From: a bacterium
Lineage (GTDB): Bacteria; SM23-81; DAOVCL01
NCBI GenBank assembly: GCA_029932675.1
Contig: JAOZPP010000020.1
Location: forward strand, 1-41,200
Reading direction: 5' to 3'
DNA: 41,200 nucleotides
Below the pieces are notes generated by a model that was given only the letters and a program-made list of their open reading frames with translations, had not been told where the DNA came from and searched no databases. The position numbers and the translations under genes are program-made. Each line of letters begins with the position of its first letter. The first letter of the stretch is position 1. This document shows, in pieces, positions 10,253 to 27,859 of the stretch.

Positions 10253-12511
10253 TTACCTTACCAGAACCATCTTCGTCGTCGAGGTGAATCCACCAGCAGT
10301 GATCTTACAGAGATAGGTTCCACTGGCTACCCTCTGACCCTGTTCATTCCTCCCATCCCAAGTAGCGGTGTAGGTTCCAGCCAGTTTATATTCGTTGATC
10401 AAGGTCTTGACCAACTGTCCCCTGAGGTTGTATACCCGCAGGGTTACCTGGCAGTCCTCAGGCACGCCAAACTCCACTGTAGTGGATGGGTTAAATGGGT
10501 TAGGATAGTTCTGGCGTAACTGGTAGCCCTCTGGCATCAGTTGCTGCATCTGCTCCTCCTCTACACCCACGCATACCGGGAGGCAGGTTGGACTACCGTC
10601 ACAGGTAGGACCTGCGGCACAGGTAGGCATCCCCGGAGTGCAAGTAAGGGGCGCACAGGTAGCCGCCCCATTGCAGGTGGGGCCTCCCGCGCAGGTGAGG
10701 GCGACACAGGTCTGGTTGCCATCACAAGTTGGCTGTGCTGGGCTACAAGTGGGCATAGCCGGATCACAGGTGGGGTTGACAACATCACAAGTCGGCATTG
10801 GCCCTCCACAGGTCACATCCTGGCAGGTGAAGTTAGGGGCACAGGTCTCGCTACCGTCACAGGTAGGTGATGCCGGATCGCAGGTAGGCATACCTGGGTC
10901 ACAGGTCTCGTATAATCCACAAGTATAATTTTCATCGCAGGTAAGATAACCAGTGCAAGTTTCGCTGCCATCGCAAGTTTCGCTGCCATCACAGGTAGGC
11001 GATGCCGGATCGCAGGTAGGCATACCCGGATCACAGGTCAGATAGTCTGGATCACAGGTGATAGTCCCGTCGCAGGTAATCATACCGTAACAAGTGGAGT
11101 AAGGCGCACAGGTCTGAGCCCCATCACAGGTAGCTCTACCATCACAGGTGACCATATCCGGATCACAGGTCACACTGCCGTCGCAGGTGGGTTGCTGGGG
11201 ATCACAGGTGGGGCTGCCATCACAGGTCTCGGTCATATCACAGGTCTCGCTACCGTCACAGGTAGGGCCACCCTGGCAGGTATTGTAACCTGTGCAAGTC
11301 AAACTTGCGTCACAGGTCTGGGTCCCATCACAGGTGGGGGACATATCACAGGTCTGGCTGCCGTCACAGGTAGGGCCACCCTGGCAGGTGTTGTAACCTG
11401 TGCAAGTTGGACTGGTGTCACAGGTCTCCACCCCTTCGCAGGTTTCATTGGGAGCACAGGTTGCCGATCCATCACAGGTCTGGTAGTCCTGACAGGTCGG
11501 ACTAGCATCACAGGTCTCCATGCCATCACAGGTGAGGTAGGGGGTACAAGTAAGGGCCTCACCCATACAGGTATGACTCCCATCACAGGTCACCTCTGTC
11601 CCTAAGCAGGTCTCGGACTGATTGCAGGTCGGTGTGCCATTGCAGGTCGGATAGCCTGAACAGGTGTTAGAAAGTGCACAGGTCTCGGTGCCGTCGCAGG
11701 TTGAGCCTCCATCACAGGTCGGACAGCCCTGACAGGTGGGACTATATGCATCGCAAGTGGGGGCATACGGATCGCAGGTTAGCTCGAAATTGTCGCAGGT
11801 ATACATATTTGGATCACAAGTCTGAACCCCTCCTATACACGTTGGCTGGCCGGGCTCACAGGTAAAATGATACAGACAAGTGGGGCCGTTGCTGTCGCAG
11901 GTGGGCATCGATGGATCACAGGTCTCGTACGGAAGGGGTTGACAGGTCTCCGTCCCATCACAGGTAGGACTACCAGCTTGACAGGTGTAGTTGGGGGAAC
12001 AGGTCTGCCCCTGGAGACAGGTCTCTGAGGTCCATTCGCAGGTAGGCATCGGCTCACAAGTGGGGAGGTAGGGCTCACAGGTAAGTTGAGGAGGGTTATA
12101 GGTGAGATTCCTTGCACAAGTATACCCAGCGTTATCGCAGGTAAAACTTCCATCACAGGTGGGTGCACCCTGTATACAGGTGAGATTCGGAGCGCAGGTT
12201 GCTCCACCAGTGCAGGTCTCTGTCCCATCACAGGTCGCACCAGCATAGGTGGGATTAAGGGGAGCCGGGGGGCTCCTATCGCCCGAGCGGGACATCCGGC
12301 AGACTTTACCCTGATGGCCCCGATTCGCGTTCATAACTGGAGGGGTATGAATTTGCTGCTCCAGGTTTGCTTTAGCCAACTCCAGGGAATGCTGAAAGAG
12401 CGGGGAACTCACTACCCTTTCATCCTCAGTCCTCGCCATGGAAAAGAGAAGGAGAACTGCCATAAGTGCGGGCAACCAAAGGATTACCGCCTTGCCTTTA
12501 TCAATTTTCAC
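10253..12511 (-). CDS. Secreted Thr-Cys tandem-repeat protein with FlgD-like C-terminal domain; function unknown
   Basis: 752 residues. An N-terminal signal segment (AVILWLPALMAVLLLFSMA) and a short linker precede residues 90-647, which consist of 87 TC dipeptides at intervals of mostly 6 or 7 residues (units such as TCDGSET, TCDASP, TCTGYN, TCDPGMP). The protein has about 90 cysteines. From C328 to C436 the spacing is exactly 6 residues, 18 times running. The end (from about residue 663) is a FlgD-like sorting domain: RQNYPNPFNPSTTVEFGV, WDGRNEQGQRVASGTYLC, TKMVLVR. The start is GTG with a very strong AAGGAGGTGA about 9 nt upstream. I do not recognise a family. The 6-residue Thr-Cys spacing is like the disulfide beta-helix of Tenebrio antifreeze protein; this is an analogy, not demonstrated homology. 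No CxxCH haem motif is present. Confidence 0.88.
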   Translation of the reverse strand: MKIDKGKAVILWLPALMAVLLLFSMARTEDERVVSSPLFQHSLELAKANLEQQIHTPPVMNANRGHQGKVCRMSRSGDRSPPAPLNPTYAGATCDGTETCTGGATCAPNLTCIQGAPTCDGSFTCDNAGYTCARNLTYNPPQLTCEPYLPTCEPMPTCEWTSETCLQGQTCSPNYTCQAGSPTCDGTETCQPLPYETCDPSMPTCDSNGPTCLYHFTCEPGQPTCIGGVQTCDPNMYTCDNFELTCDPYAPTCDAYSPTCQGCPTCDGGSTCDGTETCALSNTCSGYPTCNGTPTCNQSETCLGTEVTCDGSHTCMGEALTCTPYLTCDGMETCDASPTCQDYQTCDGSATCAPNETCEGVETCDTSPTCTGYNTCQGGPTCDGSQTCDMSPTCDGTQTCDASLTCTGYNTCQGGPTCDGSETCDMTETCDGSPTCDPQQPTCDGSVTCDPDMVTCDGRATCDGAQTCAPYSTCYGMITCDGTITCDPDYLTCDPGMPTCDPASPTCDGSETCDGSETCTGYLTCDENYTCGLYETCDPGMPTCDPASPTCDGSETCAPNFTCQDVTCGGPMPTCDVVNPTCDPAMPTCSPAQPTCDGNQTCVALTCAGGPTCNGAATCAPLTCTPGMPTCAAGPTCDGSPTCLPVCVGVEEEQMQQLMPEGYQLRQNYPNPFNPSTTVEFGVPEDCQVTLRVYNLRGQLVKTLINEYKLAGTYTATWDGRNEQGQRVASGTYLCKITAGGFTSTTKMVLVR
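10571..12244 (-). repeat. Coding minisatellite: 18/21-bp units encoding Thr-Cys repeats
   Basis: The plus strand shows 'atcacaggt'-type units (ACCTGTGAT in the coding sense) about every 18 or 21 bp across 1.7 kb. Higher-order copies are visible. The block at 11345-11404 recurs almost identically at 11237-11296 (108-bp offset). The block at 10973-11035 recurs at 10841-10903 (132-bp offset), encoding the same 21 residues. This points to growth by tandem duplication. Confidence 0.9.
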
Positions 12512-12966: not shown

Positions 12967-15504
12967 CTACCTACCCCTATGACTTGGGATTAGATAAGGA
13001 AGTTGTAGCTTTCCGCCGAAGGATTTTATAGGGGGTTTTCCCTGATTCAGTCCCATTAACCTCCTGAAGATGAAGAACTCCATTTCATTGATCTTAATCT
13101 GCTCTGGAGTGGGGGTCACGCCAGTGTGGCCCATCGACCTGGTATTAAACAAAGAGGAATTGGCAAAAACCATAATCTTTCCCTTCCCCCATTCTTTCTC
13201 CACCAGAACTGCCCCTCCATTCCTTAACCGCAACACAGGGGTCCCTCCAGTCACTCGGCCGGGATTTCTGGCTGTGGCTACTACCCTTAGCGAATCGTCA
13301 TAAATTGGCAAGGTCCGCGGGGGGAGTAACCCAATCTCCAAGCCGAATAAGGTGAGGAGTTGGTTGGCTGTGGATCGGCGGTTTGTAGGGTCATCCAACA
13401 CCAGAACCCTACCTCCCCTTTCCACGTATTCGGAGACCAAATCTACATCTTGAATAGAAAAAGGCTTCTGGGGTTCGATTACCACTACAGCATCTCCCTC
13501 CCTAATGGCCCCATCCAATTTAGAATATGCTTTGGGCACGAATCCCAACCTCTGCGTCCAGACAAAGAAAGTATGAAAGTTGTTATCCTGATTGCTCCCT
13601 AGTCTGAGGGAGGGTATAAAAAAGTCAGAATGTTCCTGCTCAAAAGCGATCCTGGTGTATTTGGTATGGGGAGTTGGAATGGGGTAAAACTTATCGTAAT
13701 TAAGGAAGGAAACCACCCTGAGAGCTATAGGAGAGGCCATCATAATGCCACCCAAAAGGAAAAAGGCCAGGGTCTCCTTTGCCACCTTAGAGCCAGCACG
13801 GATCGATAAGTACCCACACAAAGCAAATAGGATGAAGAAGATCCAGTTGAGGAAAGAATACTTGTTTCTTCTATTCAACCATTCGATGGTTCCCAAGGCA
13901 AGTTCGGGTTTTCCTGGAATGAACATAAAGAAGTTGGAAAAAACAGTGCTGTCGGTGAATCCCACCACCCTTCCCCGGCCATACTTTCTGGCCACGGCCT
14001 GCAGGAAAAGTCCAAAATCATAATCCTTGTAACTCTGTCCTTTGGCTGGGAAGAAGCTCCTCTGGGAGTAGTCCAAGGGTAAAGTCCGCAGCTTATTGCC
14101 CACAATCACCCCTTGGGCAAGCAGTGATGCACCTATAGTGCACGAGGTGGCAAAGAGAAAGGGGGGCATATGGGCCACAATGGGATGGGGCAAGACTCCT
14201 GGCCGTCTGTAGACGGAAAGGGCGGAAGTAGCGAGGTCATAGGTAGAGTCGAATCTGAAGTGGAAACCGAACAGACGGGCAAGCTGGTTTAAGTAACCGC
14301 TGGAACCGAAAACATTGGTGTGGTCACCAATTAAGTAGAGACCACCTCCCGCGCGAACGAAGTCCCTGATGGCGGCAATTTCCTCTTGGAGGAGGGCTTC
14401 CGTAGGGGTTTTGATGATCAAAACATCGTAGTTGCTGAGGAGTTCTTTGGTCAATTTCTCATGGCCTCGGCTAATTTTGTAATAGTAGCCCAGAAATTCG
14501 GCTAAACAATAATAATTATAACCCGATTTTCGCCCATACCACTTGGTGTCGAACTCCTGTTCGGTCCACTCCCAATCACTATGGAATTCATCAATTAATA
14601 CTCTTCCGGCCTTCTTCTCCCCTGGATCTTGAAAACCGAAAGCAAAGAGGAAAAAGAAAGTGCTCAGAAAAGCTAGGCCAAAAACTGAGACATACTTTAA
14701 GGGAGTGACTTCCCCAAGGGTTAAGGTCAAGTTGGTTTTAGCTGCCGGTATCCATCTGGCCAGGAGGAGAAAAAGGGGGAGGAATGTGACCATTGTAACA
14801 AGAGGAGACCAATAACAATTTAACCGATTAGTGGAAAGCACAACAAGAATCAGAAAGATGTGACGAACGAGGGGGAAGACAACCAATAGAGAGGCAAGGA
14901 TGAGCAAACTTCTTCTCCAGGATTTGGAGAGGAAGAGTAGAACAAATCCACCGATAAGGGTGAGAATGACGAGCAGGAGGCCAAGTCTCTGCCAAGTGGT
15001 GATGAAGTAGAAGATATCAACCACCCGAGGGACATATATGATGCCTTGGTTAAGATAGGCATTAACTCCAATCAGCTTCAGTCCTCTACAGACTAAGGGA
15101 GCAAGGACATCAACCCGATGATAACGAGATCCCAGGATGTAGTATAAGGAAATGGCCAAATTCTGAAAGAAAAGTATGACTCCACTAAAAAAGAGTCCAA
15201 GGAGAAGCGATGTAATTCGCCTAAAATACCGCCTCAAAGGGGAAAGGGCAAGACTGGCCAAGATAAGCAGACTTCCCAGATTATGAGGAAAGGGGAGGAG
15301 GAAGATAAACAGGAGAAGGGGAATACCTAACAGGTAGTGCTTCACCGAAGGGGTAGACGCTTTTGCCCGCCAAAAGGCGAATGTGTTGAAAAGAATTCCA
15401 CCTATGAGACACGGTATCCAATACCCAGATGCATCTGCAAAGATAGGCAAGGTGAATAACCAGGTTGAGGAAAGTAAAAAAAGACCAATCCAGAGAAGGT
15501 TCAT
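12967..15504 (-). CDS. Membrane protein with exosortase-like region (no catalytic Cys) fused to two amidotransferase-like domains (paralogue 2)
   Basis: 845 residues. Residues 1-290 are a multi-pass membrane region. Within it LIGVNAYLNQGIIYVP (144-159), then a hydrophobic run, SKSWRRSLLILASLLVVFPL and VRHIFLIL follow the order of exosortase/EpsH proteins. However, the place of the catalytic CSG motif reads FITTWQRL, so the cysteine is absent. Residues 298-530 form a Rossmann/class-I amidotransferase-like domain (YDVLIIKTP, IRDFVRAGGGLYLIGDHT, GRGRVVGFTDST). Two membrane segments (551-600) and a second similar domain (615-820; VSEYVERGGRVLVLDD, GKGKIMVFANSS) complete it. The first domain resembles DUF4350/GIFT-type non-enzymatic folds; no catalytic Cys-His pair is evident. 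It shares its whole architecture with the gene upstream, 100 nt away on the same strand. Function unknown. Confidence 0.82.
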   Translation of the reverse strand: MNLLWIGLFLLSSTWLFTLPIFADASGYWIPCLIGGILFNTFAFWRAKASTPSVKHYLLGIPLLLFIFLLPFPHNLGSLLILASLALSPLRRYFRRITSLLLGLFFSGVILFFQNLAISLYYILGSRYHRVDVLAPLVCRGLKLIGVNAYLNQGIIYVPRVVDIFYFITTWQRLGLLLVILTLIGGFVLLFLSKSWRRSLLILASLLVVFPLVRHIFLILVVLSTNRLNCYWSPLVTMVTFLPLFLLLARWIPAAKTNLTLTLGEVTPLKYVSVFGLAFLSTFFFLFAFGFQDPGEKKAGRVLIDEFHSDWEWTEQEFDTKWYGRKSGYNYYCLAEFLGYYYKISRGHEKLTKELLSNYDVLIIKTPTEALLQEEIAAIRDFVRAGGGLYLIGDHTNVFGSSGYLNQLARLFGFHFRFDSTYDLATSALSVYRRPGVLPHPIVAHMPPFLFATSCTIGASLLAQGVIVGNKLRTLPLDYSQRSFFPAKGQSYKDYDFGLFLQAVARKYGRGRVVGFTDSTVFSNFFMFIPGKPELALGTIEWLNRRNKYSFLNWIFFILFALCGYLSIRAGSKVAKETLAFFLLGGIMMASPIALRVVSFLNYDKFYPIPTPHTKYTRIAFEQEHSDFFIPSLRLGSNQDNNFHTFFVWTQRLGFVPKAYSKLDGAIREGDAVVVIEPQKPFSIQDVDLVSEYVERGGRVLVLDDPTNRRSTANQLLTLFGLEIGLLPPRTLPIYDDSLRVVATARNPGRVTGGTPVLRLRNGGAVLVEKEWGKGKIMVFANSSLFNTRSMGHTGVTPTPEQIKINEMEFFIFRRLMGLNQGKPPIKSFGGKLQLPYLIPSHRGR

Positions 15505-15604: not shown

Positions 15605-18022
15605 TTATATTTTTGTTCGGATGAGAAAATCATTCCCCGTTTTAAAATCCCTTCGGCTTCCAGCCCCTCGCTTCTCCCCCTTTACCTTCCTTTCTATGAG
15701 CTCCTTAATGAACATAATGTTGCCTAGGTGATAGGTCTTCCTCCCCTCCAGATTTTCGTTGAAGAAGAAATGGGAGTCAGCGACCAGAAAGACCCCTCCC
15801 GCGCCTATCCGTTTGTAAACCATAACCGGATATCCCCACCTTTTGGCAATAACCTCTACCTGGGTAGTGTCTGCCCTGATGGGGTAGACACAGTGGAACC
15901 TCACCTTTTGACCATAAGCGAGGGACTCTCCCGGCCCTAAGGGAACATCTTCGATATCCAGGTTAAAGTGCTGGAGCAGCTTCCAGGAGGGCAACCTCTC
16001 CTCCCAACCAATGCTAAGCATCAAAAAACCGCCAGCGTCAACATATCCATCTATAGCCTTGATCTCCTTAGCAGAAAATGGCTTCATCGGGGAAAAGAGG
16101 ACGAATATTTTGCTTTCGGGAAGCCTTTTAGAAGAAAATTGACTTATCATCAGCGGGAAAAAACCGTTTCTCATCAGGTTATATTCAAATCCACCTACTG
16201 ACTTATCCTGCCAGCTCATCAGGTCGAACAATTCCCCATGAGAGCGATCGATGTGGGCGATGTTTCCGGTAAGTCTTACCCCCTCCCAACCACGTCCATA
16301 GAGGTAGTCTGAAATCGGGGACACAACCAGTAAGAGGGTTCCCCCGGCCATGAGAGCAACGCTTGCTGGGGAAAGAAAGAGGGCAAAAATAGCCCCTAAA
16401 AAGAGAAGCAACGATATAAGTAAACGGTGCTTACTCAAGAAATCAGAACTTTCTTCTTTGGTCAGCCAATCGAAGACCCGATCCACAAAATCATGGCTCT
16501 TCACTAATGCCCCATTTTGAAATGGAGAGGTATCGCCAAAGACCATCACTTTCCCTTTGCCGTATTTGGCTTCAGCTACAAGGATGACATCTCCGAGTCG
16601 CTCACCGGGGCTATATCTTCTGTCGCCCAAAAAGGCACCTTTGGTGTTGAAAAGGTTGCCCATATCAGAAAAAGCATATCTTCCCACAATCACTGGTTTG
16701 GCTGGATGGTGAATGGAGAGGGAGGCTCCAATCCAAACCTGAACTTGGCTTTCATCCCCGATCCCATAGTTGATGGGGTGCTTAAAGAACTCCATAGTAT
16801 TGATCCACGCCCGCCTATTATTCTGAGCACAATCAAAATTGAACTCAATTTTCACCGGCCTCAACAACCTATTAAATGGATCTCGGATCCCCTTCACCGC
16901 CGTATGGTCACCCAAGGCGAGGAGAGAACCACCTTTGGCCACAAAATCCCAAATAATTTTGCTCTCCTCCTCACTAAACCTCTCCATTAGATTTATAACT
17001 ACCAAGGTGCTCGCCTCTCTTAGGCCCTCCTCGCTAATTAAGGCCTTCTTGACTTTATAACCCCTCATTTCCAAGTATTTGGGGAGATAGCCAAACATAC
17101 CTCCGCTTCTGTCGCCATAATAACCAAAAACTGGTGTCCGCCAATTGAGGTAGCCTTTGTCATAAAGGAGAATTTCCCCAGTATTCGTCCCTTGAGATTG
17201 AGGCATTACCAGGAGGATCAAAGAGAGTATAAGTAATCCAAAGCCGATTAAAGGCTTAGTTTTGGAACTGGAGAAGAGAGGGACCCTCTTCACTGGAGTT
17301 CTTCTGAAATAGAAATATGTAGGCAGACAGGCAAGAAGGAAGAAAATAATCTGCGAATGGAGATGAGTAATCTCTCTTGCTTTAACGAATTTCAGCAAAA
17401 GCGTAGCAAGAGGAAAATGGATGACAATATAGGCAACCTCAGCGAAGAGGATAGACAAGAGGAGAATCGCAGGCAACCAAAGGTTCTTCCTTCTCTCAGA
17501 AAGAAGAAACAGTGATAGATAGAAAAAAGCAAAGAGCAAGAGGATATGAACCCCCGCAGCGTTGCTTCCTAAGAGGAGCCCCCTGCCCAGCAGGATATCT
17601 GCACATCTGGAGAGGAACAGGGCAACCTCTTGCTCCATCTGCCATATTTGGGGGATATATTGATAAGCGAAGATGAAGAATGCGAACAAAACGGATGTGA
17701 GCAGCAATACCGGAAGCTCACCTTCATATCTATCATTTCCTCTAAGGGTAAGGTCAAAGAAGAAAAGGAAAAAGGGGAAAGCCATCAGTCGAGGGATCGT
17801 TCCCCAGCTCGGGAGGAGGGTAGCTGCGATAAAAGCCAAAGCAGCCAAAATCCCCCTCCAAAGATTCTTTCTTCTCAATCTAAAGGGAAGATAGGTAAAA
17901 ACAAAGCCTGCTAAAAGGAGGAGGATAAATAGATTATTGAATTCATACCTTAGGTTTCCAAGGTCGTTAGTAAGAAGCAGAAGGGCCAACAACAGTATGG
18001 GAATTCTGATAAACCTTTTCAA
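15605..18022 (-). CDS. Membrane protein with degenerate exosortase-like region fused to two amidotransferase-like domains (paralogue 1)
   Basis: 805 residues from TTG 18022. The multi-pass N-terminal half includes LLLGSNAAGVHILLLF at the position of the exosortase CSG motif (no Cys) and ITHLHSQIIFFLLACLP resembling the His-containing last helix. A soluble domain follows (about residues 285-525: LVVINLMERFSEEES, FVAKGGSLLALGDHT, GKGKVMVFGDTSPF). Then comes a membrane hairpin (about 532-572) and a second domain (about 610-785: IDGYVDAGGFLMLSIGW, GAGGVFLVADSHFF). An ATG at 18046 lies inside the -10 box TATAAT of a strong promoter, so it cannot be the start of that transcript. TTG 18022 with AAGGGGG 5 nt upstream fits. 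It is the first gene of the two-gene unit with its downstream paralogue. Confidence 0.82.
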   Translation of the reverse strand: MKRFIRIPILLLALLLLTNDLGNLRYEFNNLFILLLLAGFVFTYLPFRLRRKNLWRGILAALAFIAATLLPSWGTIPRLMAFPFFLFFFDLTLRGNDRYEGELPVLLLTSVLFAFFIFAYQYIPQIWQMEQEVALFLSRCADILLGRGLLLGSNAAGVHILLLFAFFYLSLFLLSERRKNLWLPAILLLSILFAEVAYIVIHFPLATLLLKFVKAREITHLHSQIIFFLLACLPTYFYFRRTPVKRVPLFSSSKTKPLIGFGLLILSLILLVMPQSQGTNTGEILLYDKGYLNWRTPVFGYYGDRSGGMFGYLPKYLEMRGYKVKKALISEEGLREASTLVVINLMERFSEEESKIIWDFVAKGGSLLALGDHTAVKGIRDPFNRLLRPVKIEFNFDCAQNNRRAWINTMEFFKHPINYGIGDESQVQVWIGASLSIHHPAKPVIVGRYAFSDMGNLFNTKGAFLGDRRYSPGERLGDVILVAEAKYGKGKVMVFGDTSPFQNGALVKSHDFVDRVFDWLTKEESSDFLSKHRLLISLLLFLGAIFALFLSPASVALMAGGTLLLVVSPISDYLYGRGWEGVRLTGNIAHIDRSHGELFDLMSWQDKSVGGFEYNLMRNGFFPLMISQFSSKRLPESKIFVLFSPMKPFSAKEIKAIDGYVDAGGFLMLSIGWEERLPSWKLLQHFNLDIEDVPLGPGESLAYGQKVRFHCVYPIRADTTQVEVIAKRWGYPVMVYKRIGAGGVFLVADSHFFFNENLEGRKTYHLGNIMFIKELIERKVKGEKRGAGSRRDFKTGNDFLIRTKI

Positions 18023-18044
18023 ATGTTCCCCCTTTGACCTGCCC

Positions 18045-18072
18045 ATTATAACCCTTTTTCCACAAAAGTCAA
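18045..18072 (-). promoter_or_regulatory. Strong sigma70-type promoter for the paired membrane-protein genes
   Basis: TTGACT (18072-18067), a 16-nt spacer and a perfect TATAAT (18050-18045). The transcript should begin near 18038, leaving a leader of about 15 nt before TTG 18022. Confidence 0.75.
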
Positions 18073-18478: not shown

Positions 18479-18665
18479 CCCGGATTATTCACAAATTCAC
18501 AGCACCTCTCAAATCGCTGAGGCCTCTTGCTGGAGGGACTCCGCCTTAGCGGAGTCCTGAGGAAGCGGACAGACATAAATGTCTGTCCCTACGAAACAAA
18601 TACACAAATCATTGGCCTTGAAAAATTTATGCCAATTCATTTTCAGTTCATGAATAATTCGGGTT
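18477..18665. mobile_element. MITE-like element with terminal inverted repeats (copy 2), about 189 bp
   Basis: The left end AACCCGGATTATTCACAAA matches the reverse complement of the right end (AACCCGAATTATTCATGAA) at 16 of 19 positions. These termini match those of the element at 7231-7301. No transposase is encoded; the interior carries two perfect hairpins (18536-18588). The right end abuts the ribosome binding site of the gene at 18685. No convincing target-site duplication is seen. Confidence 0.6.
18536..18588. repeat. Two REP-like palindromes inside the element
   Basis: GGACTCCGC/GCGGAGTCC (18536-18557, loop CTTA) and GGACAGACA/TGTCTGTCC (18567-18588, loop TAAA) are both perfect 9-bp stems. 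The second, followed by CTACG, resembles dispersed intergenic palindromes found in many environmental bacterial genomes. Confidence 0.6.
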
Positions 18666-18684
18666 GAAATTAAAAGGAGAAAAA

Positions 18685-21600
18685 ATGAACAAGTTCAAAT
18701 TTGTGGGGCTGTTGGCTTTGGTGGGGGTTATTCTTTATGTTGGCTTGGGAATGGGGCAAGAATTGAAGATTTCCCCTTTGGCCAAGGGTGTCGGTCGGTC
18801 CATGACACTACAGGAGGATACGCTATGGTATTTCAAAGCCTGCTATGACTCCAACTATGCTCCCGCCGGTATGCCAGACTTCGATCAGAAGCAGGATAAC
18901 TGGACCAATCCTACTTCTGGAAAGTGGTCTTTCTGCGGACCAACAGCTTTGGCCAATTGCCTTTGGTGGCTTGACTCCAGGTTTGAGCATTGGTTGGCCA
19001 GGGTCAACGGAGGCCCACTTGGGCTTCCCGGCGACCAATATGACAGGTTCCCGTTGGTAAGGGATTATACCGACAACTTGGCTCAGGCCTATATCCCACC
19101 CAATCCTCCCCCAGGCACGAACAACGACGATCACGCTGCGGACAACGTGGACAATCCCAACACCACACCGTGGTCTCTATGGCCCCCAGGTGCTCCTCCT
19201 GGGCCGTATAATCCATTTGCCCCAGGTCTACAACCTATTCCGCAGTACCCCCAATGGGGTGAGCTTATTGAGAGGCTGGCATGGTGCTGCAACTGTGACG
19301 GGGCACAACAGGGAGGTGGTTGGGAGGGGACTTATGTCCACGATATGGAAAACTGCATAGACAATTGGCTGATGGCCGAGGGTCTGGATACACTCCTCTA
19401 TGAGCACACCGTAGATTGCAGCTGCTATTATGACCTCCCTTGGTTTATTGATGAGCAGATCCACAAGAGCCAAGATGTTATCCTCCTCCTGGGCTTCTGG
19501 TATAACGAAGGAGAGGTTTGGTATAGAGAGGGTGGCCACTATGTAACCGTTGCCGGTGTAGGCACGGATCCACTGGGCGGAACGATTCTGGCAATTTCTG
19601 ATCCATATTATGACAATGCTGAACCTGCTCCCCAAGGAAACGGAGGTCCCGGCTGCGTCCACAATTCCATCTATCAGGCTCATCCAACCCCCCATCCTGC
19701 TTCCCTCCACAATGATGCCGGCAATGCCTCTCACGATTGGTATGCTCTCGCCCCTACCGCGCCCCCTCATTGGGCATATCATTGGATGCTCGTAGGTTAT
19801 CCTGGCCAATACAAGTGGGATAACTTCTTCGGGCAGAACGTTCCCAAGGGGCTAGAAAAATATCAGGATGTTAAAAGAGAGCACAAGAACAAACAGGGGT
19901 TTTTTACGCTCATCGAATATGCGGTGGTCGTCTCTCCCTATCCTGACCACGGCGATGCTCCAGCCCCCTATCCCGATGCCCATCATTCTGACTGGACTGA
20001 GGAATGGCTGGGCGCAAAGGTAAGTGGTGATATGGCGCCCCGCTTAGTGAACCTGGATACTTATGACGACGGGGTAACCTTCCTTACCCCTCTCTGCCCC
20101 GGTGAAGAGGGAAGCCTTAAAGTAACCATCTCGGTGAGGGACAGGTTTGCCTGCGAGGCTCACGGCGGGCGCTATGATGGTCAGCATCAGCTCTATCTCC
20201 ACGGCTGGATAGACTGGAGCGGAGACGGGAACTGGGATGATCCGGGTGAGAACATCTTCTGTGGCGTCCCATTTGACCCTTCAACCTGGGCTTCTAACAG
20301 CAATATCTATATCACTACTTTCACCGTTCCTACTGATGCCCAGATTGGCGACACCTGGGCCAGGTTCAGGTTGGATTATAATCAAAGCCTAAATGATCCG
20401 GCGGGACAAGCCTATTGTGGTGAGGTGGAAGATTATCCCGTGGAGATAATGGAGAAGCAATCATCTGTGGTTATTAACGAGTTTATTGCCAAAGGGACTG
20501 AGTGGATAGAGCTTTACAACTACGGCGCCTGCCCGGTGACGATGACCGGTTGGTATGTGCAGGATGACGGCGGGACCGACAACTCCATCAGCGGTGTTAC
20601 CATACCTGCCGGCGGCTACTACTCCTGGAACACCACCCTAAACCTCGGCACCAGCGGGGATTACATAGAGCTCTACGACGGCAGCAAGGCTCTCATTGAC
20701 CGAGTGGCTTATGGCAACAAAGGTGGATGCCCACTTCCTCCATATGGCTCAAATATTTCGGCATGTCGGGCTCCCAATGGATCAGACACTGATGATGATG
20801 CCAGGGACTGGACCCTGGATCGTTCATCCACTCGGGATGCGGCCAATGACGCCCCAGCGCCTCAATTGGGTTCCTCCTTGATCCTCAACGAGATCGACCC
20901 TTATCCTTCTGCCGACGGTGACTCCCTGGAACTCTACAACCCCACTGGTTCAGCAGTGGATATCACCAATTGGTGGTTCTCCGATGGAGATGATATCATT
21001 GACCTACCCAGCGGAGGGACAGTCCCTGCAGGAGGATGGTTAGTCCTGGCTGAGGGCTCTGGCGATTGGCCCGATGGCCAGTGTGATTTCTCCAGTGGTG
21101 ATGTGGCTTATCTCTTCAATGCCAGTGGAGTGAGGGTTGACCAGTTAGGCTGGTATGGAGAATACAACGACCACTCCTTCCAGAGGTGTCCGGATGGGAA
21201 CGGTCCAAACGACGGTTACGATTGGACATCTTCCGGTGGGGACACAAGCCTCTTTGACACCACCGCCACCTGGGGAGCAGCCAACTGCGTCTACTGTGAG
21301 CCCCCCCAGCCTCCCTCAAATCTCATCTGTGAGGCAACTGATACCTGTATTGTCCTAAATTGGACAAACACATCGGAGTATGACAGCGTTGCCGTATACA
21401 GAAGTTGGGGTGGAGTTTCGGAAATGCTCTTAGTGATTCTACCAGGAGGTTCAGAGAGTTACCACGATGCCACCTGTTGTTGCAGCGGCAACTACGACTA
21501 CCATGTGACCGGTTTTCATTGTGACGAGGAGAGTGGGCCAAGCGATACCTGTTGGGTCTATAAACTGGGCGAGGTCCAATATTCTTGGGACTTCAACGAG

Positions 21601-23181
21601 AGCGACCAGGGTTGGATGCACTATCCAGATCCCCCTGGAGTGGACTCCTGGCAATGGGGTATGCCCACATACGGGCCTGAGCCGGGAATGCCAACCTGTC
21701 CCGACACAGGAGGAACTCCCGTGCCCCTGACCAACTGCTGGGCTACCATTAGCCAAGGTCCGTACTCGCCCTTCTCCTGCTGTCGCCTGTTCTCGCCCCC
21801 TGTCCAGCTCGATAGCTGTGGTGCTCTCTTAGAGATCTGTCACTGGTATGCGATGACACCTGAACCTCCGGATGGTGGAAATGTCAAGGTTTCCACCGAT
21901 GATGGAGTGACCTGGGAGCTGATTACACCCTGTCAAGGCTATCCTTGCCCGTTTCTGGACACCGAGTGCGATAAGATAGTTGGTCTGCCCGGTTACTCCG
22001 GAATGAGCCCTGGTTGGGTGCTTGACTACTTCGATCTCGCTGCACTGGGTTATGGTGACTCCACCGTTCAGATAGCCTTCGACTTCGGCTCAAATGACAA
22101 CCCCGATGCGTGGCCAGGGTGGTATATCAAATGGGCCAAGATCTACCATTGTCCGGTAGTTGGAGGAGCATTCATCAGGGGTGACTATGACGAGAACGGG
22201 CAATTATTGACCAATGACCCTCTGATGGAATTGCAATTTATCTTTGGTGTCCCTGGTGCCACTCCGCCGTCTTGTGAGGATGCTGCCGACTATGATGATG
22301 ACGGTAAAATTTTGACCAATGATCCACTGATGGCTTTGCAATTTATCTTTGGGGTCCCAGGTTCTGTCCCTCCTCCACCTCCCTATGGTCCATTCCCAGG
22401 CGGCTGTGGGCCGGATCCAACCGATGATGACTTGACTTGCGCAGACCATGCTTGTCAACATTTGAAAGCTACGCCTTCTTATAAGCCTTCTGTAAGTGTG
22501 TCTAATGCCCCTAACAAGCTGTTGCTGGAAGAAGCTGAGTTTATTAATGGCAAAGTAAGGGTTCCCTTTGACCTGACAATTAATGAGCCTGTATGTGGTT
22601 TTGACATTTCAGTTACCTATAATACTTCTTCCTTACGGTTTGAGAAGGTTGTTGGTGGAGATGGGTATGACTTCTGGGCTGTGGACACTCGTCAGGCAGG
22701 TGTAGTGCGGATAGGAGGGGTACCTGATATAGAGATGGCCAAGCTGCTGGAGCCTGGAACGTACAGAGTTGGTGAAATGATGTTTGAGGTAAAGGAGATG
22801 GGTAATATGGGTCTGAGGTGGAAGAAGGCAGAAGTGTATGGAGCTCAAGTACAGCCTCTGTCTGTAGAGTGGGTAGTAAAAACTGGGGAAAGCATATTGC
22901 CTACCCAGTTTGCCTTAGAGCAGAACTATCCTAACCCATTCAATCTGCAGACAGCGATCAGGTATCAGCTCCCCGAGGATTGCCGGGTGACCCTGGAAAT
23001 TTACAACTTACTGGGAGAGAAGGTGAAAACCCTGATCAGCGGCGAGCAGAAGGCCAACTACTACACTGCCTATTGGGATGGAAAGGATGCAGAAGGCAAG
23101 GAAATCTCCAGTGGAATCTACTTCTACAAACTTCAGGCTGGCAGCTTTACTCAGACCAGAAAGCTAGTCATCCTCAAGTAG
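18685..23181 (+). CDS. Giant secreted multidomain protein: C39-like cysteine-peptidase fold, GEVED, two lamin-tail domains, dockerin, cohesin-like and FlgD-like sorting domain
   Basis: 1498 residues. After a signal peptide (FKFVGLLALVGVILYVGLG) comes a C39/papain-like module with FCGPTALANCLWWL (Cys about 84), GGHYVTVAGVG (His about 285) and AISDPYYDN (Asp about 306). A GEVED domain ends near residue 585 (YCGEVEDYPVEI). Two lamin-tail domains (INEFIAKGTEWIELYN; LNEIDPYPSADGDSLELYN) span about 592-870, then an Fn3-like stretch and a jelly-roll-like region (about 965-1158). A type-I-dockerin-like pair of calcium loops (GDYDENGQLLTND; ADYDDDGKILTND; 1162-1228), a cohesin-like beta region (about 1268-1395) and the FlgD-like end (EQNYPNPFNLQTAIRYQL, tail RKLVILK) complete it. 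ATG 18685 follows AGGAGA; an in-frame TTG at 18664 lies in the mobile element and is rejected. Peptidase activity is inferred from the residue order. Confidence 0.88.
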   Translation: MNKFKFVGLLALVGVILYVGLGMGQELKISPLAKGVGRSMTLQEDTLWYFKACYDSNYAPAGMPDFDQKQDNWTNPTSGKWSFCGPTALANCLWWLDSRFEHWLARVNGGPLGLPGDQYDRFPLVRDYTDNLAQAYIPPNPPPGTNNDDHAADNVDNPNTTPWSLWPPGAPPGPYNPFAPGLQPIPQYPQWGELIERLAWCCNCDGAQQGGGWEGTYVHDMENCIDNWLMAEGLDTLLYEHTVDCSCYYDLPWFIDEQIHKSQDVILLLGFWYNEGEVWYREGGHYVTVAGVGTDPLGGTILAISDPYYDNAEPAPQGNGGPGCVHNSIYQAHPTPHPASLHNDAGNASHDWYALAPTAPPHWAYHWMLVGYPGQYKWDNFFGQNVPKGLEKYQDVKREHKNKQGFFTLIEYAVVVSPYPDHGDAPAPYPDAHHSDWTEEWLGAKVSGDMAPRLVNLDTYDDGVTFLTPLCPGEEGSLKVTISVRDRFACEAHGGRYDGQHQLYLHGWIDWSGDGNWDDPGENIFCGVPFDPSTWASNSNIYITTFTVPTDAQIGDTWARFRLDYNQSLNDPAGQAYCGEVEDYPVEIMEKQSSVVINEFIAKGTEWIELYNYGACPVTMTGWYVQDDGGTDNSISGVTIPAGGYYSWNTTLNLGTSGDYIELYDGSKALIDRVAYGNKGGCPLPPYGSNISACRAPNGSDTDDDARDWTLDRSSTRDAANDAPAPQLGSSLILNEIDPYPSADGDSLELYNPTGSAVDITNWWFSDGDDIIDLPSGGTVPAGGWLVLAEGSGDWPDGQCDFSSGDVAYLFNASGVRVDQLGWYGEYNDHSFQRCPDGNGPNDGYDWTSSGGDTSLFDTTATWGAANCVYCEPPQPPSNLICEATDTCIVLNWTNTSEYDSVAVYRSWGGVSEMLLVILPGGSESYHDATCCCSGNYDYHVTGFHCDEESGPSDTCWVYKLGEVQYSWDFNESDQGWMHYPDPPGVDSWQWGMPTYGPEPGMPTCPDTGGTPVPLTNCWATISQGPYSPFSCCRLFSPPVQLDSCGALLEICHWYAMTPEPPDGGNVKVSTDDGVTWELITPCQGYPCPFLDTECDKIVGLPGYSGMSPGWVLDYFDLAALGYGDSTVQIAFDFGSNDNPDAWPGWYIKWAKIYHCPVVGGAFIRGDYDENGQLLTNDPLMELQFIFGVPGATPPSCEDAADYDDDGKILTNDPLMALQFIFGVPGSVPPPPPYGPFPGGCGPDPTDDDLTCADHACQHLKATPSYKPSVSVSNAPNKLLLEEAEFINGKVRVPFDLTINEPVCGFDISVTYNTSSLRFEKVVGGDGYDFWAVDTRQAGVVRIGGVPDIEMAKLLEPGTYRVGEMMFEVKEMGNMGLRWKKAEVYGAQVQPLSVEWVVKTGESILPTQFALEQNYPNPFNLQTAIRYQLPEDCRVTLEIYNLLGEKVKTLISGEQKANYYTAYWDGKDAEGKEISSGIYFYKLQAGSFTQTRKLVILK

Positions 23182-23238: not shown

Positions 23239-23299
23239 CATCTCATCAGGAATCGTCTTAGAGGAAATGAGGATTCCAATTGATTAGGAGATGATGGTG

Positions 23300-26200
23300 A
23301 TGGAAAAATCACAAAAATTGTTAGCTTACTTGAGTATAGGTTTACTAGTAACAATCCCCTTTTTTACCAGTTCCACGCTGAAGGCAGATAACCTAACCAT
23401 AACGCTCAATGCTGGTGAGTATCGGATTATCAATGTGGATAAAGGGCAAGATATAATTAAAATGAATGGTTTCAGTAACCTCTTGGTCCCTGGTAAACCT
23501 ATGCTGCCGGCAAAGGGATTTATGATAGCCCTTCCTCCTGGGGCAGAGGTTTCTTCAGTCATTACTATAGGCACAAGTCCTGTTGAAATTAAAGGAATCC
23601 ACAAGATAAAACCAGCACCACCCTTTTTGCCCTCCAACAACCGGAAAGACACAGTCAAAAAATGCCTGCAAGAATGGCAGCAAAACTACGATGCTACCTA
23701 TTCTTCAGATCAGATCTACCCCCAGGATGTGGGGAAATATTTGGGAGTCGGAGGTTTGAGGAAATATACCTTTGTCAGGGTGGCATACTTTCCTTTCTCC
23801 TATCGCCCCAAATCGGGCAGGCTAACTTTTAATCCCTCCCTCATAGTCTCCATTGATTATAACTTTCCCTCATCAGGTAGCAAAGAAGTAGAGCGATTGC
23901 TGTCAGATACGATGGCAGACGATCGAGCTTCCCGGCTGTTTGTCAATTATTCCCAGGCAAAGACCTGGTATACTCCTGAGAAAGGGGAAGCCCCAAAACA
24001 AAGTTACGATTATGTAATCATCACCACAGAGACTCTGCAGGATGCAGTGAATCCGTTCGCCTCTTGGAAACAGGCGATAGGTTATAGGGTTAATGTGGTC
24101 ACCCCTTCCTGGATAGAAGCCAACTACTCTGGAGTTGACCTACAAGAGAAGATAAGAAATTTCCTCATCGATAAGTATCCCCAATCCCAATGGGGGATCG
24201 AATATGTCCTCTTAGTTGGTGACATCGACGCGGTCCCTATGCGCTACTGTTATCCAGACCCATCTGATCACGATCCAAGTTCGGATTACTGCACACCCAC
24301 GGACTATTACTACGCCGACCTCACTGGAGACTGGGATTCAGACGGGGACGGATATTACGGGGAGTATGGGGAAGATAACGTCGATTTTGTTCCCGAAGTC
24401 CATGTTGGGCGAATCCCCTGGAGTGACCCCACCACCGTGACTTCTATTTGTCAAAAATTGGTTAACTTTGAAAATGACAACTCCTCCTGGAAGAATAATG
24501 CCTTACTCCTGGGTGCAATGAGCAACTATGCCAATGAAGACTCTTCAGAATGGGACAGAACTGATGGGGCAAACCTAATGGAGGAAATGATCTCCGATAT
24601 GCCCACCGGTTGGAGTTACACCAAGATGTATGAAAAGGCGGGACTTAACCCTTGCCCATATTCTTGTGACTATCCTATTACCCATGCCAATGTGGTGAAC
24701 GACTGGTCGTCAAATGATTACGGTATCGTCAACTGGTGGGCCCACGGTGGCCAGACCGGTGCTTGGAGGAAATGGTGGGCCTGGGATGATGGGGATGGAG
24801 TACCAGAAACTGAGAGCCCGGACGAGATAAGCTGGCAGGCATTTATCAGTAACTCAGACGTCTCCTCCTTGGATGATGATCACCCTTCCTTGATCTTTTC
24901 CTGCTCCTGCAACAACGGCTGGCCAGAGGTGGACAATCTGGGTAAGGAACTCCTGAAACATGGATCGTCTGGAATAGTGACCTCCACCAGGATCTCCTGG
25001 TATACAATTGGTTGGTTAGATGAAAGCTGGGGGGGGAATGCCTCCATCGATTACTACTTCTTTCACTATCTGATCACTAACGATGAGAAAGTTGGGGATG
25101 CCCTTTTTGATTCCAAAGTTTACTATCTCAATAACTTCTTCTGGTGGGGGGAGGCGAGTCAACAAAATATGTTTGACTTTTGCCTCTATGGTGACCCGGC
25201 ATTAAAGAGAGGAGGGGTTCCATCAGCGGATCTGTTTATCCGAGGTGATGCCAACTGTGACGGGAGGGCAGATATCTCAGATGTAGTCTACAATCTCAAC
25301 TCGTTCTTTGGCTTTCTCCCCTCTCCTCCTTGTATGGACGCAGCAGATGCCAATGATGACGGACAATGGAACATTCCTGATGGCTTTACTCTATATCTCT
25401 CTCAATTTGAAGGCTACCCACCACCACCACCACCTTATCCTTATCCCGGTCCTGACCCAACTGAAGATGAACTCACCTGTCCTGGTGGATGCCCTTATCC
25501 TCCTGATACTACCGTCTCACCCTCAGATACTTTTATGATAGTAGATACACAAAGATTACAAGGGGATAGCACCTCTTCCTTCATAATACTCGGAACCTCA
25601 CATTTGAATAATGCGGGTTACTCTATAGGCTTTTGTTTTAACCCCTCACAGTTAAGAGTGGATAGTGTGGATATACTTTTCAATTATTCAGGACAGGATA
25701 ATGCGATATGGAACAATGAGGAGGGCTGGTGCAAAATAGGTGCCTTTGCCATTGTTGGGGTATACAATTATAACCCTCCCTTCGCCCATAAACCCTTGGC
25801 TACCGTTTACACTACCATCTCGCCCAACGTGGCTATGGAAGAGACCCTCTGGCTCGATTTAAAGAACGGTTGTGGAGGGATTACTAACCTCTTTTCCGAT
25901 GAAGTTGGAAATTCTACCCTTGCTACCCTTATAGATGGCCGAATCCTTCCCCCACATTTCGCGTTCCAAACCCAACCCACTTTCCCTTTGGCAATGGCGG
26001 AAAAAGAAACTCTGGCGATTATCGTCATAGCTAATGATTTCTTATCTCAAAATTTCACCTTGAATGTGAAGGCACATCCCCCTAATTTCTTTTCCTGGAC
26101 TGGACCGGTATTTAGCACAACGGGGACTGCAGTCGGAACCCTAACCGTCATCCCTCATAAGGGTGATAAAGGAGTATATTACCCTTCTTTTTATCTCAGT

Positions 26201-27730
26201 GATACTTTAGGGGACGCTGTCTTAGGCCCTTATGAATTAGATGTCTGGCCTTGCGACCAGTCCCCCTTAAGCGGAAAGCTCTCTGGGTTGCTATCGAAGA
26301 AGAACAGCCCTTACCGAGTTGTGGGGGATATCATCGTACCTGCTGGGGATAGCCTAATAATCGAACCAGGGGTAGAACTAAGATTTGGCTGGTTCAACTC
26401 TCCAGAGAAACATTGCTTCAAGATTAGGGGAATCCTAAAGGCACTGGGAACTGAGACTTATCCCATTACCTTCACTTCCAACCAGTTTATACCCAGAATC
26501 GGCGATTGGGAATCCATTGAGTTTGATAGTGCAAATGCCTCAACCAAACTGAGCCACTGCAGAATTGAATATGCCGAAAAAGGACTTTACTGCAAGTATT
26601 CATCACCTCATATAGAAAAGAACCTTATTGATGGAAACCTTTATGGAATATATTGCGACCATTCAACTCCCCTCATCCTCAACAACGAGATATCCAGAAA
26701 TATTTATGGAGTTTATTGCTCCTCATCTTCGCCACTGATTAGGGAAAACGAGATAACTCAAAATTCTAATCCAGGAATTACCTGCACAGGCGAACTATCT
26801 TCACCCTTAATAGAGCATAATGAAATCATCTCAAATGGAAGCAATTTCTTCTTAAATAGAGGGGAAATTGAGTGCAAGTATAAGTCCTCCCCTATAGTGC
26901 AAGGGAATTTAATCCAGGGGAAGTTAGGAATTTCTGGCACTGAATCCTGTTCACCACTGATTTATAACAATCTGATTTGTGTTAAGGAATGCGGAGTGAG
27001 TTTTTGGCAATGGAGCGGAGAAAGCATGATAAGCAACATAGTTAACAATACAATTATAGGTAAAGGAGGAGAAGCTTTTTTAGGAATTAGTTGTGGCCAA
27101 GGGGTTTATTCTATAGCTAACAATATTATCACCGGTTATCAAGCTGGTATTGATCAACGTGAAAGCTCCTTACGCATAAATTACAACGACGTTTGGGGGA
27201 ATGGAACCAACTTCTCAAACTGTGCTCCTGGAGTTGGCGACACAACCTGGGGAGAGAACCCCAATGGCATCCCTTGTGACAGTTTCTACAATATTATCAG
27301 AAACCCACTCTTCTGCGATCCTGACAGCGGGGATTACCATTTGGCCAAAAACTCCCCCTGTGTAGGCGCTGGTCAAGACAGCTTGGGCAATCCGGTAGAC
27401 ATCGGAGCCTTTCCAGTAGGCTGCCCTCCTATTGGCATTGAGAGGGAAAGAAGGGCGAAGATCCCTCAGAAGTTCTCCCTCTCATCCAACTACCCAAATC
27501 CGTTTAATCCGGTTACTCAGATCAGATATGCACTTCCGCAGGGGTGCAGGGTAAGATTGGAGATATACAACATTCTGGGTCAAAAGGTAGTGTGCTTAGT
27601 GGATAGGGAGCAAACTCCCGGATACAAGACAGTTTCGTGGAATGCAAAGGATATGAGTTCTGGCATCTACTTTTACCACATTCATGCTGGCAACTTCACC
27701 CAGACCAGGAAGATGGTCGTCCTCAAGTAG
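23300..27730 (+). CDS. Secreted gingipain-like C25 cysteine peptidase with dockerin-like, cohesin-like, beta-helix and FlgD-like domains
   Basis: 1476 residues. A signal peptide is followed by a C25 propeptide-like region (NLTITLNAGEYRII; PGKPMLPAKGFMIALPPGAEV). The peptidase runs from about residue 235 to 640: YDYVIITTETLQDAVNPF, YVLLVGDIDAVPMRY, PEVHVGRIPW, the His motif NWWAHGGQTG (His about 482), and IFSCSCNNGW with the probable catalytic Cys at about 537. Then come a dockerin-like segment (RGDANCDGRADISD, about 650-710), a cohesin-like region, a right-handed beta-helix with many 'N.I..N..GI.C' turns (about 1005-1350), and the FlgD-like end (SNYPNPFNPVTQIRYAL, tail RKMVVLK). Four start codons lie in a row (ATG ATG GTG ATG); ATG 23300, 9 nt after AGGAG, is best spaced. 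It is likely surface-anchored or released after cleavage of its tail. Confidence 0.9.
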   Translation: MEKSQKLLAYLSIGLLVTIPFFTSSTLKADNLTITLNAGEYRIINVDKGQDIIKMNGFSNLLVPGKPMLPAKGFMIALPPGAEVSSVITIGTSPVEIKGIHKIKPAPPFLPSNNRKDTVKKCLQEWQQNYDATYSSDQIYPQDVGKYLGVGGLRKYTFVRVAYFPFSYRPKSGRLTFNPSLIVSIDYNFPSSGSKEVERLLSDTMADDRASRLFVNYSQAKTWYTPEKGEAPKQSYDYVIITTETLQDAVNPFASWKQAIGYRVNVVTPSWIEANYSGVDLQEKIRNFLIDKYPQSQWGIEYVLLVGDIDAVPMRYCYPDPSDHDPSSDYCTPTDYYYADLTGDWDSDGDGYYGEYGEDNVDFVPEVHVGRIPWSDPTTVTSICQKLVNFENDNSSWKNNALLLGAMSNYANEDSSEWDRTDGANLMEEMISDMPTGWSYTKMYEKAGLNPCPYSCDYPITHANVVNDWSSNDYGIVNWWAHGGQTGAWRKWWAWDDGDGVPETESPDEISWQAFISNSDVSSLDDDHPSLIFSCSCNNGWPEVDNLGKELLKHGSSGIVTSTRISWYTIGWLDESWGGNASIDYYFFHYLITNDEKVGDALFDSKVYYLNNFFWWGEASQQNMFDFCLYGDPALKRGGVPSADLFIRGDANCDGRADISDVVYNLNSFFGFLPSPPCMDAADANDDGQWNIPDGFTLYLSQFEGYPPPPPPYPYPGPDPTEDELTCPGGCPYPPDTTVSPSDTFMIVDTQRLQGDSTSSFIILGTSHLNNAGYSIGFCFNPSQLRVDSVDILFNYSGQDNAIWNNEEGWCKIGAFAIVGVYNYNPPFAHKPLATVYTTISPNVAMEETLWLDLKNGCGGITNLFSDEVGNSTLATLIDGRILPPHFAFQTQPTFPLAMAEKETLAIIVIANDFLSQNFTLNVKAHPPNFFSWTGPVFSTTGTAVGTLTVIPHKGDKGVYYPSFYLSDTLGDAVLGPYELDVWPCDQSPLSGKLSGLLSKKNSPYRVVGDIIVPAGDSLIIEPGVELRFGWFNSPEKHCFKIRGILKALGTETYPITFTSNQFIPRIGDWESIEFDSANASTKLSHCRIEYAEKGLYCKYSSPHIEKNLIDGNLYGIYCDHSTPLILNNEISRNIYGVYCSSSSPLIRENEITQNSNPGITCTGELSSPLIEHNEIISNGSNFFLNRGEIECKYKSSPIVQGNLIQGKLGISGTESCSPLIYNNLICVKECGVSFWQWSGESMISNIVNNTIIGKGGEAFLGISCGQGVYSIANNIITGYQAGIDQRESSLRINYNDVWGNGTNFSNCAPGVGDTTWGENPNGIPCDSFYNIIRNPLFCDPDSGDYHLAKNSPCVGAGQDSLGNPVDIGAFPVGCPPIGIERERRAKIPQKFSLSSNYPNPFNPVTQIRYALPQGCRVRLEIYNILGQKVVCLVDREQTPGYKTVSWNAKDMSSGIYFYHIHAGNFTQTRKMVVLK

Positions 27731-27748: not shown

Positions 27749-27785
27749 CAAGGGGGGGTGAAAGGAATTTTTTCACCCCCCCTTG
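27749..27785 (+). terminator. Hairpin terminator after the C25 peptidase gene
   Basis: A 14-bp perfect stem, CAAGGGGGGGTGAA / TTCACCCCCCCTTG, followed by TTTCG. A second smaller hairpin (CCCTTGT/ACAAGGG) overlaps its left arm. Confidence 0.7.
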
Positions 27786-27859
27786 TTTCGTTAAGAAAGC
27801 AGTTAAATCCATTTTCTGTCTGCTTCCATCGAGCTCTCACCTATTCAAGGAGGAGAATT

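Follow-up and report, generated by a model that had tools for sequence, protein, structure and literature searches.

A gene for a secreted cysteine-repeat protein, with two membrane-protein genes, points to an undescribed system for cysteine-loaded surface proteins

What is a bacterial protein in which 87 of 92 cysteines stand in closely spaced Thr-Cys (TC) dipeptides, and does it act alone? The gene for this protein (gene A) lies in a 41,200-nucleotide stretch of bacterial DNA, here called the window (Table 1). We find that A is one member of an unnamed, multi-phylum family of secreted, surface-anchored cysteine-repeat proteins, and that the A gene together with two membrane-protein genes, B and C, points to an undescribed system that makes or matures cysteine-loaded surface proteins. 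The component folds and anchors are already known; the motif family and the cassette are undescribed in the sources searched, namely open-access papers, profile libraries and the PDB. An odd ORF thereby becomes a testable system, with a candidate secreted Cys-rich substrate, a conserved motif and two dedicated membrane proteins, which recurs across distant phyla and is known here from metagenome-assembled genomes.

Table 1. Features of the window and the three proteins retained from the pattern scans
Feature	Position	Strand	Details
Gene A, TC-repeat (cysteine-comb) protein	10253..12511	-	GTG start, 752 aa
T9SS type A / FlgD-like sorting tail of A	10265..10507	-	residues 669-749
TC array of A	10583..12235	-	residues 93-643, 87 TC
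Start unit PTYAGATC of A	12230..12253	-	residues 87-94
Conserved mature N-terminal motif SPLFQHSL of A	12383..12406	-	residues 36-43; 28 aligned members
Sec-type signal peptide of A	12434..12511	-	residues about 1-26, judged by eye
Gene B	12967..15504	-	845-aa polytopic membrane protein, two GIFT/GATase1-like domains; cassette partner
Gene C	15605..18046	-	813-aa B paralogue, DUF4350/GIFT domains, N-terminal TM region; cassette partner
L050			Candidatus Zixiibacteriota DeMMO3_3; dockerin end
L060			Clostridiales Gx485_bin32; SLH end
L089			Bacillota Cu122P5bin5; SLH end

The TC array and the C-terminal tail of A

A preliminary description, made from the DNA letters and their translations, had reported a protein of 87 Thr-Cys repeats, and both the ORF and the count hold, with every TC dipeptide inside the array. 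Shuffling of the repeat sequence gave a mean of 16.6 TC and a maximum of 29. The dipeptides are spaced mostly by 6 or 7 residues (81 of 86 intervals; 6, 54 times; 7, 27 times; 5, three times; 8 and 13, once each), and the interval of 13 arises where a TC has become TY, so that it covers two units. The cysteine content, called extreme in that description, is indeed 92 in a chain of 752 residues. Its statement that the repeat has no named family is also borne out, as neither Pfam, NCBIfam nor the literature yielded a match to the repeat; the C-terminal tail is the sole part of A that matched, and the profile libraries placed the repeat in no characterised family.

An array of this kind might be a neutral low-complexity expansion, in which the repeat has no function, and some of the 108-bp tandem copies in A are recent. 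However, the Thr and Cys codons of the repeats show 46 synonymous versus 2-3 non-synonymous differences (p about 1e-25 against a neutral expectation that is rough, the direction being clear). This excess of synonymous variation means that selection maintains the TC dipeptide and that the array is not merely young repeat DNA. The TC dipeptide of A is thus under strong purifying selection. Since the proteins are also conserved across phyla with a fixed pair of partners (see below), we consider neutral expansion highly improbable.

The ends of the protein agree with the earlier view of a secreted, surface-directed protein with a FlgD-like tail. The signal peptide, MKIDKGKAVILWLPALMAVLLLFSMA, has by eye a basic n-region, a hydrophobic core and S-M-A, and the tail exceeds the curated cut-offs of both FlgD_ig (42 bits, cut-off 27) and the T9SS sorting domain TIGR04183 (38.8 bits, cut-off 23). 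More than 100 other ORFs of the same genome (G000, 3.03 Mb) match A through this FlgD/T9SS-like tail. A therefore shares its tail with T9SS type A/FlgD-like cargo (TIGR04183, PF18962, PF13860), but in the A family this tail is merely one of several interchangeable anchors, and the repeat and the N-terminal motif lie outside every tail family. Elsewhere in the window, positions 23291-27730 encode a C25 (gingipain-family) peptidase with a propeptide, a right-handed beta-helix region and a T9SS-type tail, and the genes adjoining it (18664-23181 and 27758-30373) also encode tailed proteins.

An N-terminal motif and relatives in several phyla

The preliminary description overlooked three features of the locus, namely the SPLFQHSL motif, the PTYAGATC start unit and, upstream, both partner genes. 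An alignment of 28 members gives the family form of the motif as [ST]P[LA][FY]xx[S]Lxx[STA][VIL]xx[FLM], in which position 0 is S/T, position 1 P, position 2 L/A, position 3 F/Y, position 6 mostly S, position 7 mostly L, position 10 S/T/A and position 14 F/L/M with one Y; position 11 is V/I/L in all members except the window protein. The spacing of these residues fits one face of a helix, and the motif is probably helical. After a variable linker, the array starts with PT[MYL]xG..TC in several groups; where the window protein has PTYAGATC, several other members have PT[ML]xGxxTC. The plan of the family is a signal peptide, an SPLFxxSL-type motif, a Cys array with 8 to 230 cysteines and an anchor that varies between a T9SS-like tail, a dockerin, SLH or none. 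What unites the family is the N-terminal motif together with spaced cysteines; the TC dipeptide itself is not what its members share.

To find relatives, we scanned contigs for five TC at 6-residue spacing and searched with a profile, A2. Most of the listed pattern matches in genome and viral contigs were simple-repeat DNA or reading frames lacking the motif; among the matches listed, we retained L050, L060 and L089, which have more than the repeat in common: a signal peptide is followed by the motif (ISPLYEQSL, YSPLFEASL and YSPLFDASL-like forms) and then by TCxGxx-rich Cys repeats. By the profile search, 9 of the 133 genomes in the Zixibacteria phylum encode TC proteins, with several genes per genome and up to 217 TC and 230 Cys per ORF. 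Complete Zixibacteria members mostly end in dockerin-like repeats, and L299 carries a tail of the window type. The architecture is present in Zixibacteria (L050, L297-L312) and Bacillota (L060, L089), and it is found as well in the small phylum of G410/G273 and in the class of G403. All three genomes of the order of the Clostridiales genome (G062) carry TC proteins, as do 5 of 8 genomes of the G410/G273 phylum, whose forms are shorter, with the motif SPAFxxxLxxAIARLEG and no recognised anchor. The window protein alone, used as the query against 60 relatives, gave no match, which means only that close copies are rare.

A few members depart from this picture. Some, such as those at L302 (1-2602) and L312, have a long non-repeat domain and arrays that are SC-rich rather than TC-rich. 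At L300 (1759-6162) an ORF contains 217 TC, and from about 6077 another frame contains 92 TC and a dockerin-like end; the two frames reflect a frameshift or a fault of the assembly, or else belong to one chain with about 309 TC. The TC matches in G266 were rejected as spurious, since one has internal stops and the other is weak, with no array ORF in the stretch examined.

Linkage to two membrane proteins

To define the neighbourhood of the TC genes, we compared the ORFs around 20 TC loci, all against all. Apart from TC genes, the most widely shared neighbours encode two paralogous membrane proteins of 760-900 aa, B and C. These lie beside TC genes in the window and in G191, G193, G410, G273, G521 and G522, and also in G061, there at a contig edge. 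Most often the genes run A-C-B, or else A diverges from C-B, and in the window they run C-B-A on one strand; the C and B genes often overlap by 4 bp. A search with B in the 133 Zixibacteria genomes matched exactly the 9 that hold TC proteins (Fisher P value 3.7e-14, counting genomes, of which related ones are not independent). In five Zixibacteria genomes (G060, G187, G188, G190 and G192) B/C are present, and no TC gene was seen in the sequence around the pair.

Among 386 diverse genomes, B had 7 matches: G000, G273, G410, G295 (by its coordinates the same genome as G188), G054, G331 and G403. The last three have B and no TC match, and in all three a motif-bearing Cys protein adjoins B/C. The protein in G054 (L398) has SPLYQYQT, units like CATDPQWC and, by eye, a FlgD-like tail; that in G331 (L399, 14337-19310) is 1657 aa long with TPLFDYQT, more than 140 Cys and the repeat C-x-T-[ND]-P-x-[FYW]-D-P-x-C (units like CQTNPEFDPIC); that in G403 (L400) has SPLFEESL, with its Cys core in another frame. 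B is found in 5 of 9 genomes of the class of G403. At L421-L423 (G529, G530) the A proteins are short, 190-223 aa, contain 8-10 Cys and have a core resembling PTLAGNTCSTTCGVRSTC. Beside a second B/C pair in G273, a Cys protein is built of pentapeptides (CVGSYCFGSA), and a stop codon interrupts the frame within its motif region (L410, 5100-5720). Two divergent B/C pairs, L425 (G532) and L426 (G403:C219), have no Cys protein next door; upstream of the former is a Tyr/Asn/Pro-rich secreted ORF.

In a phylogeny, B and C form two well-supported clades, each with all six groups sampled (the tree has some long branches and an uncertain internal order), so the duplication predates their spread and the pair is old. 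In our view, A, B and C very probably form one functional unit. None of the three matched PADLOC.

The predicted fold of B relates it to GIFT-domain proteins. An AlphaFold2 model of B (15 rows; pLDDT 81.8, pTM 0.83) matched, in a Foldseek search of the PDB, first the N-terminal GIFT domain of IFT52 (TMt 0.71, E 3e-7), and further leading matches were GATase1-like domains of glycoside hydrolases and OST48 of oligosaccharyltransferase. Similarly, the Pfam families DUF4350, ABC_transp_aux and IFT52_GIFT match 15 of 15 B proteins, and B itself scores 35.7 bits against PF23355 (IFT52_GIFT; cut-off 27.2). With this cut-off reached and an IFT52-like predicted fold, B is assigned to the GIFT-domain superfamily. 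Its invariant polar residues (D305, H308, E312, K365, H395, N406, H440 and D518) could be an active or binding site. Hydropathy places a long TM region ahead of the first GIFT domain and further TM segments between the two domains; the GIFT/GATase1-like domains are probably outside the cytoplasm. A resemblance of the N-terminal TM part of B to exosortases, suggested by eye, was dropped, as no exosortase model in NCBIfam or Pfam matched at E up to 10.

Among the GIFT-domain proteins IFT52, OST48/DDOST and GldG (PF23355, PF09822), B thus resembles IFT52 in profile match and predicted fold and OST48 in predicted fold, but B/C differ from these in the long N-terminal TM region, the two GIFT-like domains and the linkage to Cys-repeat proteins. 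The ABC_transp_aux and DUF4350 matches in all 15 B proteins would suit a GldG-like accessory of transport or sensing, with A as a co-regulated surface protein or ligand that stays unmodified. However, B scores 22.8 bits on the GldG equivalog TIGR03521, for which the cut-off is 389.85, no ABC transporter gene was recognised as part of the cassette, and B/C are tightly linked to motif-bearing Cys proteins, and we consider this role quite unlikely.

Possible states and functions of the array

The preliminary description had named a disulfide solenoid among the candidate structures, and a disulfide-laddered beta-solenoid stalk like the beetle antifreeze protein, which would not need B/C, has some appeal. 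In the beetle protein, Cys occupy positions 2 and 8 of 12-residue coils, and the hexapeptide TCxGxx looks like half a coil of the Tenebrio molitor protein (TmAFP), with Cys every 6 residues. Runs of perfect hexapeptides reach 58, and counts of mature Cys are slightly more often even than odd (19 versus 10, which is not decisive). The AlphaFold-type modelling proposed at the time gave no fold for the repeat, however: with 20 perfect hexapeptides of the window protein (29 rows), AlphaFold2 returned pLDDT 38, pTM 0.13 and no secondary structure, hence no strands. Repeats are hard cases, and this failure argues weakly against a regular solenoid. In addition, 1216 repeat units contain no 12- or 18-residue super-period, spacings of 4, 5, 7 and 8 are interspersed, and relatives with only 8-10 Cys have the same motif and partners. 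No antifreeze-like solenoid protein came up when the PDB was searched by sequence with A; a match of the repeat to a PDB entry named for a LIM domain was a low-complexity alignment and was set aside. Unlike the Tenebrio protein, A is far longer, is irregularly spaced and lacks a TxT face, position 3 being Thr in 4% of 1651 units of relatives and in 5 of the 54 units of six residues in A itself.

The redox setting also bears on this question. Two standard enzymes of disulfide generation were looked for and not detected in the carrier genomes tested: DsbB (PF02600) in 0 of 16 genomes, all family carriers, and VKOR (PF07884) in 0 of 10, of which 8 are carriers (G000, G060, G061, G062, G187, G193, G410 and G273) and two, G001 and G300, have no TC match and are excluded from the carrier count. 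In the controls, matches occurred in 6 and 3 of 14 genomes, which makes a lack of such enzymes no rarity; moreover, the carriers are phylogenetically clustered, and the counts that bear on the question are for carriers alone. The solenoid idea therefore lost ground with the model, the absent super-period and the enzyme searches, and we regard it as very unlikely.

The same enzyme counts favour a reduced array, a thiol polymer that binds metal, metalloid, sulfide or mineral, with B/C aiding its export or loading. In agreement with this, no fold is predicted for the array, and what is conserved is the spacing of Cys and not a fold. However, the Cys in the array of the window protein are at least 5 apart except in TCQGCPTC and TCLPVC, and there are almost no CxC/CxxC pairs (only TCQGCPTC), in contrast to the clusters of metallothioneins. 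Lack of DsbB/VKOR is also common in anaerobes, and exported Cys are not confined to A, since two further exported proteins of the window carry 35 and 44. We therefore hold the thiol polymer to be possible but doubtful.

Starting from the family with its motif and anchors, the selection on TC, the gene linkage and co-occurrence and the predicted GIFT fold of B, we favour, at about even confidence, a reading in which A is a substrate that B/C recognise by its SPLF motif and that the cell surface presents as a flexible comb of cysteines. A would be exported by Sec, and its mature N-terminal SPLFxxSL motif would serve as the tag by which it docks on a membrane complex of the two polytopic proteins B and C, which may mature or escort the cysteine array. 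Depending on the host, a C-terminal T9SS-like tail (as here), a dockerin or SLH would then anchor A to the surface, where the array, mostly unstructured and bearing a thiol at roughly every sixth residue, might form a cross-linkable or ligand-binding comb (fibre or matrix). Modification of A by B/C would amount to a new protein-maturation chemistry outside the cytoplasm; without it, the proteins would still represent a novel class of surface polymers whose chains hold up to 230 cysteines. GIFT domains are tied to glycosylation through OST48, so glycosylation of Thr/Ser or Cys is one option among several. Against the reading of A as a substrate stand the five Zixibacteria genomes in which no TC gene was seen around B/C and the two divergent pairs that lack a neighbouring Cys protein. 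GIFT domains occur in non-enzymatic proteins too, and we know of no GIFT-fold enzyme that modifies Cys or Thr.

A more specific form of such a system would be RiPP-like and extracytoplasmic. SPLF would be a leader that survives removal of the signal peptide, and B/C would install covalent modifications or cross-links (thioether, S- or O-glycan, or other) on Cys and Thr/Ser of a core that was amplified from about 8 to more than 200 Cys in some lineages. We think this unlikely. A differs from RiPP precursors in its Sec signal peptide, no known RiPP enzyme was recognised, and other A members have large arrays and surface anchors. The short A members do resemble RiPP precursor peptides: their conserved N-terminal motif is followed by a spacer and by a C-terminal core rich in Cys and Thr, and their genes adjoin the membrane-protein pair.
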